From an uncultured Candidatus Melainabacteria bacterium (GTDB lineage Bacteria > Cyanobacteriota > Vampirovibrionia > Gastranaerophilales > Gastranaerophilaceae), in NCBI GenBank assembly GCA_949915775.1, contig CATLEG010000010.1:1-37658 (forward strand): DNA of 37,658 nt, given 5' to 3'. Made by a program: the position numbers and the translations under genes. Under the pieces are notes generated by a model. The model was not told the origin of the DNA. It did no database searches and saw nothing but the letters and a program-made list of their open reading frames with translations. Every line of letters starts with the position of its first letter. Position 1 is the first letter of the stretch. Below, in pieces: positions 1,514 to 37,545 of the stretch.

Positions 1514-1855
1514 TTAAGCCTCTCCGCCGGCATCTCCACCTTTATTAAACAATGCCATAACACCCATTGGAAGTGCATTTCCAAGTCCGCTAAATAACCC
1601 GCCGAGTGCATCCCAAACATTTGTACCGCCAGATTCTTTACTTGCTTCATCCGGATTAATATTATAATCTTTCATTAACAATTTCATTTCATCATCTGAT
1701 AATCTACCGTCTCCATTCAAATCATATCTTTGAACTATTGGATTTTGAAAAATAGAATTTGTTTGATTTGCTGCCCCATAATTGTTAATGGTAACATTTC
1801 TTGGTTGCATTCTGTTAACTGTTGATGGGATAAAAGTTTGTGTTCTGGTAATCAT
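1514..1855 (-). CDS. Small EF-hand calcium-binding protein
   Basis: The 113-residue protein has one canonical EF-hand loop at residues 45-56, DLNGDGRLSDDE. Asp1, Asn3, Asp5, Gly6 and Glu12 are all in place, so calcium binding is likely. The N-terminus is Thr/Asn rich and looks disordered. The C-terminus is Gly/Ala/Leu rich, with one weakly hydrophobic stretch at about 82-104. No signal peptide is visible. An AGGAGG ribosome site precedes the ATG. Its promoter is one of three copies of a shared module with TAGCA pentamers (see 1936-1990). The function is not recognised. Calcium binding is inferred from the loop alone. Confidence 0.7.
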   Translation of the reverse strand: MITRTQTFIPSTVNRMQPRNVTINNYGAANQTNSIFQNPIVQRYDLNGDGRLSDDEMKLLMKDYNINPDEASKESGGTNVWDALGGLFSGLGNALPMGVMALFNKGGDAGGEA

Positions 1856-1935: not shown

Positions 1936-1990
1936 ATGCTATGCTATGCTATGCTATGAGCGATTATACAAGGGTTTCCAGCTTTGTAAA
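1936..1990 (-). promoter_or_regulatory. Shared promoter module with TAGCA pentamers, copy 1
   Basis: On the minus strand there is TTTACA (1985-1990), a 16-base spacer ending GGAAACCCTTG, then TATAAT (1963-1968). Transcription would start about seven bases on, at the edge of four exact TAGCA/ATGCT pentamers (1936-1955) plus a variant fifth (1956-1960). The EF-hand start codon is about 80 bases downstream. This copy matches the one at 28387 for over 60 bases, reaching upstream of the -35 box to about 2000. Confidence 0.75.
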
Positions 1991-2025
1991 ATTTTGTTAA
2001 GTTATTGTTACATGGGAAAAAAGTA

Positions 2026-8298: not shown

Positions 8299-8431
8299 TT
8301 TTAGCTCCTTTGTTGTGTAATACTTTTTGGGCTTTTCACCCGTTCGACCTGTAAATATACAAAAAAAATTTTGCATCTTTACATAATTAGACCGCAAAAT
8401 CAAACAAATCAATATTTATATTTCGACTGTT

Positions 8432-8523
8432 CAACCTCGGTTAGCTGATGTTTTAAGGGATAAGAGTCGTTTCTCCGTTACGCCGGGCCCCAGGCCCAAC
8501 CCCCCGCTAACTGTCTGCGGTAT
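8432..8523 (-). promoter_or_regulatory. L10-type ribosomal leader RNA
   Basis: On the minus strand, GCAGACAGTTAGC near the predicted transcript start pairs with GCTAACCGAGG about 60 bases later. This is the long-range stem and the bulged pattern of L10 operon leaders, the binding site of L10-L12. A GC-rich hairpin sits between (GGGCCTGGGGCCC-like). The match is to my memory of the family consensus; a search with Rfam RF00557 would settle it. Confidence 0.7.
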
Positions 8524-8529
8524 ATTTTT

Positions 8530-8557
8530 ATGATAGCAAAAAAGAAAATAAAATCAA
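8530..8557 (-). promoter_or_regulatory. rplJ-rplL promoter
   Basis: TTGATT (8552-8557), a 16-base spacer and TATCAT (8530-8535) on the minus strand would start transcription near 8523, right at the L10 leader. Confidence 0.6.
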
Positions 8558-18743: not shown

Positions 18744-19430
18744 TTATTCATATTCTTTGATTTCAACTTTTGATGCAGAATCTATATTTAGAGTCGGTTT
18801 TTTATTTGGATCGGCATTTACGGATATTCGAGTAGCAGAATCCCAAATCATACCAACATCTTTAGTGTTTTTTATATTCAACTTACCTGTAAAATACGTA
18901 GCATCTATTGTTTCTAAACTTGAGTTTTTAATATTGCAATTCTTTAGTTTTCCTGAATCCATGTCAGAAATATCAACCCGATTGCCTGATACACCATCAT
19001 AAGTTGCAGTTTTTGTATTTAAATTATATACAATATTACCGCCTTTAAAATCCTCAGATTCTCTTACCAAATAGGCAGACTTTTTTAATTCATCTTGACT
19101 ACTAGCCTTTATCTTTACATTACAACCGGTTTCATTATTATATGCACGTAACTCATTACCATACAATGCAAAAGTATAACTATTCATAGCTTCTGCACCT
19201 TCCTTATCGTATGTACCATGATATTTAATACCATTCTTTTTATCATCCCACGATGCTTCCTGAAAAGCATCTGCAACAAGTTTTTGAGCGGCACTGCCAT
19301 TTGCTTTAACATCAGCTGTTCTCATACCTTCACGAACATTAACTTTAGCTTCAGTTTTTACTTTTCTTGGAGCACCTGTTGCCGGTGCGTTAGTAGTTAC
19401 ATTCGCATTTGAAATTTTGTTTGTTGTCAT
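18744..19430 (-). CDS. Beta-solenoid-like protein of unknown function
   Basis: The 228-residue protein begins with a disordered Thr/Asn/Ala-rich segment (1-55). A middle domain follows, then from about residue 130 repeating short strands in the style of a right-handed beta helix (GGNIVYNLNTKTATYDG, LKNCNIKNSSLETIDAT, GKLNIKNTKDVGMIWD, PTLNIDSASKVEIKEYE). No signal peptide or membrane segment is visible. Its promoter is copy 2 of the TAGCA module shared with the genes at 1514 and 27912. It is the last gene of the segment splitting the spc operon. No homology is recognised. Confidence 0.6.
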   Translation of the reverse strand: MTTNKISNANVTTNAPATGAPRKVKTEAKVNVREGMRTADVKANGSAAQKLVADAFQEASWDDKKNGIKYHGTYDKEGAEAMNSYTFALYGNELRAYNNETGCNVKIKASSQDELKKSAYLVRESEDFKGGNIVYNLNTKTATYDGVSGNRVDISDMDSGKLKNCNIKNSSLETIDATYFTGKLNIKNTKDVGMIWDSATRISVNADPNKKPTLNIDSASKVEIKEYE

Positions 19431-19535: not shown

Positions 19536-19591
19536 ATGCTATGCTATGCTATGCTATGAGCAATTATAGCAAGGGTTTCCAGGTTTTTAAA
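19536..19591 (-). promoter_or_regulatory. Shared promoter module with TAGCA pentamers, copy 2
   Basis: On the minus strand TTTAAA (19586-19591), a 17-base spacer ending GGAAACCCTTGC, and TATAAT (19563-19568) are followed by the variant pentamer and four exact pentamers (19536-19560). The flank GGGCGCAAAA beyond the pentamers is shared with copy 3. It diverges from the other copies upstream of the spacer. The start codon is about 105 bases on. Confidence 0.75.
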
Positions 19592-19686
19592 CTTGAATTT
19601 ACATTTTGTTACAATTAAGATTTTTACAAGTTTTTGTTAAGTTTTTGTAATATTTTATTTCACACTTACCCTAAAAATTAAGAATA

Positions 19687-27911: not shown

Positions 27912-28280
27912 CTATACATAGTATTTTTTAGCAACTTTACCACAGTCTGGCATTTTAAGAGGTTTCAATTTTATTTTCAATGCCAACTTTTCTTTAGAAG
28001 CTTTTATGGCTTCCAATACATTATCCCAGGTAGCATTTTGAGGCAAATTAAATCTTTCCAGCAAACCTTCGACTTCTTTTTTACCTTTTTCTGTTAATTT
28101 GCCACCTTTGTCAAACATGTCTTTTGTAATCCCTTTTAGCGCATTTGGAGTAATTTCAGAACGAATTCCATGCATATAAACTAATTCTTCGGCAAATTTT
28201 TTATCTTTTACCGCAAGTCTTTTTACAGCATTTGAAAATCCACGAACTCCTGATTCTAACATTGCAACTTTTCCTGACAT
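27912..28280 (-). CDS. Small basic helical protein of unknown function
   Basis: The 122-residue protein is mostly helical and Lys-rich (SGVRGFSNAVKRLAVKDKKF, LTEKGKKEVEGLLERFNL, AIKASKEKLALKIKLK), with no signal peptide or membrane segment. It matches no family I know. Its promoter is copy 3 of the TAGCA module shared with the EF-hand and beta-solenoid genes. It is bounded by its own terminator and by minE, so it is a single-gene unit. Confidence 0.6.
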   Translation of the reverse strand: MSGKVAMLESGVRGFSNAVKRLAVKDKKFAEELVYMHGIRSEITPNALKGITKDMFDKGGKLTEKGKKEVEGLLERFNLPQNATWDNVLEAIKASKEKLALKIKLKPLKMPDCGKVAKKYYV

Positions 28281-28386
28281 AACATTTTCCTTTCTTTTTC
28301 TACTTTTTTACTTTCTTTTGAAAAATCGATTTTCCTTACTCTTTTATAAAAACACAAACGCCAAAACTATTGCTATGGGCGCAAAA

Positions 28387-28441
28387 ATGCTATGCTATGC
28401 TATGCTATGAGCGATTATACAAGGGTTTCCAGCTTTGTAAA
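28387..28441 (-). promoter_or_regulatory. Shared promoter module with TAGCA pentamers, copy 3
   Basis: TTTACA (28436-28441), a 16-base spacer ending GGAAACCCTTG and TATAAT (28414-28419) are followed by the variant pentamer and four exact pentamers (28387-28411). It matches copy 1 from the pentamers past the -35 box, and shares GGGCGCAAAA after the pentamers with copy 2. The start codon is about 105 bases on. Confidence 0.75.
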
Positions 28442-28479
28442 ATTTTGTTAAGATTTTGTTACGTTGGTAAAGTTAGTAG

Positions 28480-37303: not shown

Positions 37304-37343
37304 CAGTCTTTAAGACGTTAAGACGATAGGTCGATAAGTTCTT
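37304..37343. repeat. GACGTTAAGACGATAGG repeat
   Basis: The same short words as at 2026 and 25297, again directly beside an ACGCACGTAG repeat. Confidence 0.5.
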
Positions 37344-37545
37344 ATCGTGTGCTACGCACGTAGTCCTGCCGGTAGATGTTGGTGAAGACTTTAAAGATAT
37401 AGGTATATGTTTTACGCACGTAGCCCTGTTGATAAATATCGGAGAAAACTTAAAAGATGCTGGTATATGTTTTACGCACGTAGCCCTGCCGGTAGATGTT
37501 GGTGAAGATTTTGTAGACTCTTGAATAGGTGTCGCACACAAAACA
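37344..37545. repeat. 60-bp tandem repeat array (ACGCACGTAG family)
   Basis: ACGCACGTAG occurs at 37354, 37414 and 37474, exactly 60 bases apart. Each unit continues with CCTG, GATAAATATCGG or GGTAGATGTTGG, then GTATATGTTTT. The last unit ends GTGTCGCACACAAAAC like the single copy at 2053. The period is a multiple of three, and the minus strand is open through it with a 20-residue repeating peptide. Confidence 0.85.

Follow-up and report, generated by a model that had tools for sequence, protein, structure and literature searches.

The window, the whole stretch of 37,658 nucleotides that was analysed, carries on its minus strand three copies of a promoter-like module, placed where the preliminary description had put them, each with exactly four TAGCA pentamers in tandem, (TAGCA)4. 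As that description held, all three have a perfect -10 box (TATAAT), a -35-like hexamer (TTTACA, TTTAAA and TTTACA in modules 1, 2 and 3), spacers of 16, 17 and 16 bases and a common spacer sequence, GGAAACCC; copies 1 and 3, said to match for more than 60 bases, are identical over 67 bases, through the array. Each is followed by the lone gene that had been described, which starts 102–128 nt from the start of the array and 82–108 nt from its end. The features are as follows:

1514 to 1855, minus strand: gene 1, 113 aa, with a single weak EF-hand match below the Pfam cut-off
1937 to 1956, minus strand: module 1 array, (TAGCA)4, which can be read as four TAGCAT hexamers that overlap one another; the closing T is base 1936 and the putative +1, an A, base 1957
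1963 to 1968, minus strand: module 1 -10 box TATAAT; the first TAnnnT begins 12 bp after its start
1972 to 1979, minus strand: module 1 spacer element GGAAACCC; the AAA of GAAAC is invariant in 38 aligned promoters
1985 to 1990, minus strand: module 1 -35-like TTTACA, spacer 16
1996 to 2012, minus strand: module 1 direct repeat TGTAAC..CTTAAC, an OmpR-type, HLR1-like box (from the promoter alignment)
18744 to 19430, minus strand: gene 2, 228 aa, no Pfam family
19537 to 19556, minus strand: module 2 array, (TAGCA)4; closing T at 19536
19563 to 19568, minus strand: module 2 -10 box TATAAT
19573 to 19580, minus strand: module 2 spacer element GGAAACCC
19586 to 19591, minus strand: module 2 -35-like TTTAAA, spacer 17
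19598 to 19613, minus strand: module 2 direct repeat TGTAACAAAATGTAAA, 10-bp period (from the promoter alignment)
27912 to 28280, minus strand: gene 3, 122 aa, no Pfam family
28357 to 28386, minus strand: module 3 post-array stretch TGCGCCCATAGCAAT, common to most modules
28388 to 28407, minus strand: module 3 array, (TAGCA)4; closing T at 28387
28414 to 28419, minus strand: module 3 -10 box TATAAT
28423 to 28430, minus strand: module 3 spacer element GGAAACCC
28436 to 28441, minus strand: module 3 -35-like TTTACA, spacer 16
28447 to 28463, minus strand: module 3 direct repeat CGTAAC..CTTAAC (from the promoter alignment)

Overlapping matches to (TAGCA)3 number six in the window, against 0.04 expected from shuffled sequence, and TRF reports a period-5 repeat at module 1 (1936–1958). 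The 'variant pentamer' noted earlier at the 5' side of each array is better read as a discriminator, CTCA, which is kept even where the pentamer letters differ. Relatives of gene 3 with the same promoter occur in three other genomes (G003, G016 and G024). A dispersed repeat (ACGTGCGTAGC..., TTAACGTCTTATCG...; about 60 bp in common) lies directly upstream of several modules of this genome and is found in the window at 2024–2060 and 37310–37491. The minus strand of the window also holds a ribosomal protein L10 leader at 8353–8538 (Rfam RF00557, 57.4 bits).

A common promoter in the genome and its relatives

The genome that holds the window (G000; 2.04 Mb in 143 contigs) was searched for at least three TAGCA units in tandem, with the reversed pattern as control. 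The module, first described as present three times, proved to be far more frequent, with 21 arrays (20 of four units and one of three; two entries, at the ends of contigs C54 and C82, could be one locus) and none of the control pattern. All 21 sit directly 3' of the -10 box of the same promoter, and a correctly oriented gene lies 3' of every array except one cut by a contig end; on the earlier question of whether the module lies away from gene starts, all 20 modules with enough flank precede a co-directional gene. Around the array the copies resemble one another between roughly -65 and +50, and on either side of this span their similarity drops to background. A mobile or duplicated promoter cassette, with the array as a functionless passenger, would fit the dispersed upstream repeat of about 60 bp that several copies have in common; this limited span of similarity, with background beyond it, and the fact that in several genera arrays keep to one register though their letters differ (below) speak against it, and we consider it very improbable.

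Alignment of 38 promoters with their arrays left out gave the consensus TGTAACGAAATGTAAATAT..ATTTAAAAAnGCCTGAAACCCTGnTATAATnnCTCA. From 5' to 3' the module consists of a direct-repeat box TGTAACnnAATGTAAA, a poor -35, a strongly conserved spacer GCCTGAAACCC, a good -10 (TATAAT or TATACT), a discriminator ending in CTCA, an array that usually has four overlapping TAnnnT hexamers and a leader of about 100 nt, after which comes one gene. The repeats of the box have a period of 10 bp (11 bp in some copies in G000), and their consensus, TGTAACGAAATGTAAA, contains two TTACA-type repeats at the 10-bp period of the HLR1 sequences for which a cyanobacterial box form has been listed (PMC6331805). In one relative (G006), a gene for an OmpR-type regulator lies near a sctV-like gene. 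Most modules have a second conserved stretch, from the array to about +50, composed of TTGCGCCCGTAGCAATnnTTTT and then GTTTTTATAAAAnnGTAAGG; this may be a further protein site or an additional weak promoter. The upstream direct repeats, the conservation of the spacer across species, the TAnnnT register and the other pentamers described below go beyond the preliminary description.

A model of this promoter alone stops 5' of the array, so what lies downstream of a hit is an independent observation, though the training promoters all carried arrays. It found 25 strong sites in G000 (E at or below 2.7e-9, plus one contig-edge hit, followed by a gap to 0.004): 21 have three or four TAGCA units, two have two, one has (TATGG)4 and one has none. 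Among relatives it found sites in 58 of 77 genomes, hundreds in total, the strong sites being those in genomes of the same genus and family; 58 high-scoring sites in relatives have at least two pentamers in 55 cases and at least three in 51, the model itself being free of pentamers. At 118 sites in the relatives and G000 together, an open reading frame with a ribosome-binding site begins 57–276 nt downstream (median 106). Two strong promoters that have no array are L176, with no adjoining co-directional gene, and L220, beside a pseudogene remnant. Named relatives of one regulon protein, in a similarity search, are mostly from Candidatus Gastranaerophilales, a non-photosynthetic cyanobacterial lineage. 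These sites bear out the suggestion of a regulon whose members have in common both a promoter and an initially transcribed sequence, and we conclude from the sequence comparison that the module defines a large predicted regulon in Gastranaerophilaceae.

At five sites in relatives G006, G045 and G002 (L067, L064, the third module of L065, L072 and L076), an intrinsic terminator and no gene follows some 95–120 nt on. The predicted transcripts, of 130–150 nt and beginning with the array, may be small RNAs, or else what is left of lost genes.

Letters, register and linkage of the array

Pentamer letters vary between sites (TAGGA 66, TAGCA 48, TATGA 9, TAGAA 4, TATGG 4, TATGC 3, with TATGT and TAGTA once each), which rules out the exact TAGCA sequence as the conserved feature. 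Different letters stand side by side in one genome, for example in G021, and arrays with differing letters keep the same register in several genera. The constant feature is a series of overlapping TAnnnT hexamers, with a TA every 5 bp: the first hexamer is TAnnnT at 124 of 126 sites, matches TATAAT at four or five of its six positions at 124 of 126, and is offset from the start of the -10 by 12 bp at 89 sites and by 11 bp at 33, together 122 of 126. Hexamer positions 1, 2, 5 and 6 are nearly fixed as T, A, A and T, and positions 3 and 4 are variable; with T1, A2 and T6 fixed, unit letters vary only at positions that are weak in a -10. TAnnnT is common by chance (49% of random AT-rich pentamer arrays, or 32% when at least four of six matches to TATAAT are asked for) and the unit types are mutational neighbours, so the letters alone prove little.

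Conservation reaches as far as the last base of the fourth hexamer, a T. This closing T is present in 77 of 78 arrays of exactly four whole units but in only 8 of 19 five-unit arrays, and when sites are grouped by genome and unit, which reduces shared ancestry, in 32 of 33 four-unit against 8 of 16 five-unit groups. Slippage that expanded an original seed hexamer could also have left such a T as a relic, so we take the closing T as support rather than proof. Two other properties of the letters were considered and ruled out: a coding sequence, as the unit types have no reading frame in common, and a two-layer G-quadruplex from (TAGGA)4, which TAGCA and TATGA arrays cannot form.

Neither the four copies nor the TAGCA letters noted earlier hold between species: in a comparison using one genome per species, the unit differs in 11 of 44 orthologous pairs and the number of whole units in 21 of 44. 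This variation between orthologous promoters weakens the case for an antisense sRNA or a strict TAGCA-specific reader. It also bears on phase variation, in which slipped-strand mispairing of the pentamers would toggle expression, as phase-variable promoters likewise have short tandem repeats beside them and the copy number is off by one or more in those 21 ortholog-like pairs. Unlike such repeats, however, the module's array lies downstream of the -10, where the spacing of the core elements is unaffected, and it is short and nearly constant in number within a genome (the same in 20 of the 21 arrays of G000), which makes this the least credible of the readings considered here.

The array goes with the promoter. 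In the MGLSAGQARLL protein family the promoter is present at 9 of about 78–79 named loci and the array at all nine, most other members having none, which argues that the array belongs to the promoter. In the family (loci L270–L348), most members have another conserved leader, TTAAAGTTTT...ATGCCGTAATACTACATGAA...GAAAGGA, with neither promoter module nor array. In a MAG titled Heliobacteriaceae bacterium (L299, upstream of 1886), a degenerate pentamer run of complementary type, CTGTCCTATCCTGTCCTG, precedes an MGLSAGQ gene.

At the RNA level the array is predicted to be unstructured, no conserved structure was found across copies in the array or the stretch that follows, and the Rfam scan gave no family match at the modules. 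Across copies there is no support for a candidate hairpin 3' of the array, ATTGC-N7-GCAAT, which pairs in 77% of cells and shows little covariation.

Candidate functions of the array

Two readings other than pausing are possible and are its main rivals, though we judge both unlikely. The first places the function in the mRNA, where 5' AUAGN or UAUGN repeats would be bound by a multimeric protein or would protect the message, giving joint post-transcriptional control. The presumed 5' end coincides with the beginning of the array, the array RNA is predicted to be unstructured, and a UAG at period 5 resembles the spacing in sites of TRAP, which reads UAG/GAG triplets 2–3 nt apart in about 11 units; a regulon of exported proteins would also suit the logic of YopD, which was proposed to read AUAAA. 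Transfer of AU-rich elements conferred no control in the YopD case (PMC6583979). The likeness to TRAP sites is confined to TAGNA arrays, with UAG every 5 nt, and the module differs from them in having four to seven units; TRAP-like reading was rejected as a general model, since TATGA, TATGG and TATGC arrays, which occupy the same position, contain no repeated UAG/GAG. More broadly, UAUGN arrays without UAG hold the same place, unlike letters coexist in one genome (G021), the array goes with the promoter and not with leader or gene, and the closing T would have no role in an RNA signal.

The second rival, to which we give about the same low weight, is a DNA operator: a repressor or activator on the +1 to +21 duplex would contact flexible TpA steps over two helical turns. 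The modal array length of 21 bp and its fixed place agree with this, tolerated A/T swaps fit minor-groove or shape reading, and conserved bases run on past the array. On the other hand, the array lacks dyad symmetry, repeats at 5-bp half-turns would be unusual for known regulators, and odd and even copy numbers are both tolerated.

The reading we prefer, at somewhat less than even confidence, is that of a regulon promoter with OmpR/RpaB-type activation in which a tandem series of -10-like hexamers causes stepwise sigma-dependent pausing. We propose it because the register and hexamer pattern match sigma70 pausing, and because of the putative CAT start and the conserved spacer. In E. coli, the more distal sigma70 pauses, those of the 16–20 register, depend on a -10-like region placed 11 bp past the -10 together with a YR+1Y start (PMC7876045). 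Here the putative start context, at a position predicted from sequence, is CAT at 96 of 126 sites, and a -10-like hexamer with T1, A2 and T6 about 11–12 bp past the -10 is found by pattern in 124 of 126 first hexamers and by offset in 122 of 126. We infer that a response regulator of OmpR/RpaB type would activate at the direct repeats, and that transcription would begin with the A that precedes the array, or with a neighbouring base, in C-A-T context. In the non-template strand the TAnnnT units would then serve as weak mimics of a -10, re-bound by sigma region 2 during initial transcription, and the polymerase would pause close to the promoter every 5 nt, slowing or gating its escape. Pausing itself does not require Gre; Gre factors normally rescue sigma-dependent promoter-proximal pauses. 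No match to the GreA/GreB N-terminal domain was found in G000, so the E. coli relief pathway appears to be missing there; we count this against the reading, together with the chance frequency of TAnnnT and the negative search for a phage Q protein (below).

Taken further, the array may be an undescribed start element whose four -10-like hexamers, in tandem over the first 21 bases of the transcript, would act by stepwise sigma-dependent pausing throughout a regulon of perhaps exported proteins in a lineage apparently without GreA/B. For this fuller claim our confidence is lower again, and we offer it tentatively. We know of no precedent for a tandem series of pause elements, nor, should the element act on RNA or as an operator, of any such element of that kind. 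In the literature searched, no report was found of the array letters in bacteria or of such a promoter motif in Gastranaerophilales, and if the mechanism is other than pausing, the element could be categorically new.

Regulon products and comparison with known systems

Of 116 downstream proteins scanned, most had no match; EF-hand (9), LysM (7) and RHS repeat (4) matches occurred, one protein matched a calcium-binding type III effector model, and an HExxH motif could be read directly from the sequence of two regulon proteins. FliP, FliQ, FliR and two proteins of FlhA/SctV type are encoded in G000; in a relative, a FliF/YscJ-type protein is encoded near FlhA. Export of regulon proteins through this flagellar or type III-like apparatus, as its substrates, is plausible and a reasonable guess; nothing relevant on type III secretion in Gastranaerophilales was found in the literature searched. 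The MGLSAGQ protein (L121, 7545–9182) is predicted to have long helices at both the N and the C terminus. Structurally, its best matches are flagellins and FliD (Z 8–9.7, a range that long helices can reach by chance); Foldseek returned no significant match. It may be an axial or filament-type export substrate.

The export genes lie at 50473–52934 of contig C2 (L119) and 5457–7556 of contig C85 (L118) in G000, and at locus L123 in a relative. The genus with these genes lacks the highest-scoring flagellar FlhA type, and nearly all genomes encode a divergent FlhA C-terminal protein, about 490 aa long.

The module, its register and the regulon emerge from comparison between genomes, and in the best-supplied genomes of this uncultured gut lineage the regulon, defined from sequence alone, comprises about 20 or more genes. 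Most of its products belong to no known family, and the module can be used to search for them throughout the family. If the pausing proposed here is true, these promoters would offer a natural, repeated test case for sigma re-engagement and for control of expression by the initially transcribed sequence, operating in bacteria seemingly without Gre factors.

Among known systems, RpaB/HLR1 and PhoB/OmpR-type promoters resemble the module in the direct repeat TGTAACnnAATGTAAA with its 10-bp period, which is the reverse complement of the HLR1 form; the module's regulator is putative, and an array after the -10 is not known in HLR1 promoters. In Q and AlpA systems a -10-like pause element occurs together with a promoter binding site (PMC9371919), for which the conserved spacer GCCTGAAACCC is a candidate counterpart here. 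The only Q family searched for, the phage Q protein family PF06530, has no match in G000. The module is like Q/AlpA antitermination (PMC9371919, PMC6606751) in having a conserved spacer element and a -10-like element where the transcript would begin, and unlike it in having a tandem series in place of one element and no terminator in most leaders. With sigma70 pausing at lambda pR', lac and E. coli G1d (PMC7876045) the module has in common a good -10, a putative Y-R-Y start and a hexamer 11–12 bp downstream; it differs in that pausing is putative, that no GreA/B domain was found in G000, and that the -10-like hexamer is present four times in tandem, regulon-wide.
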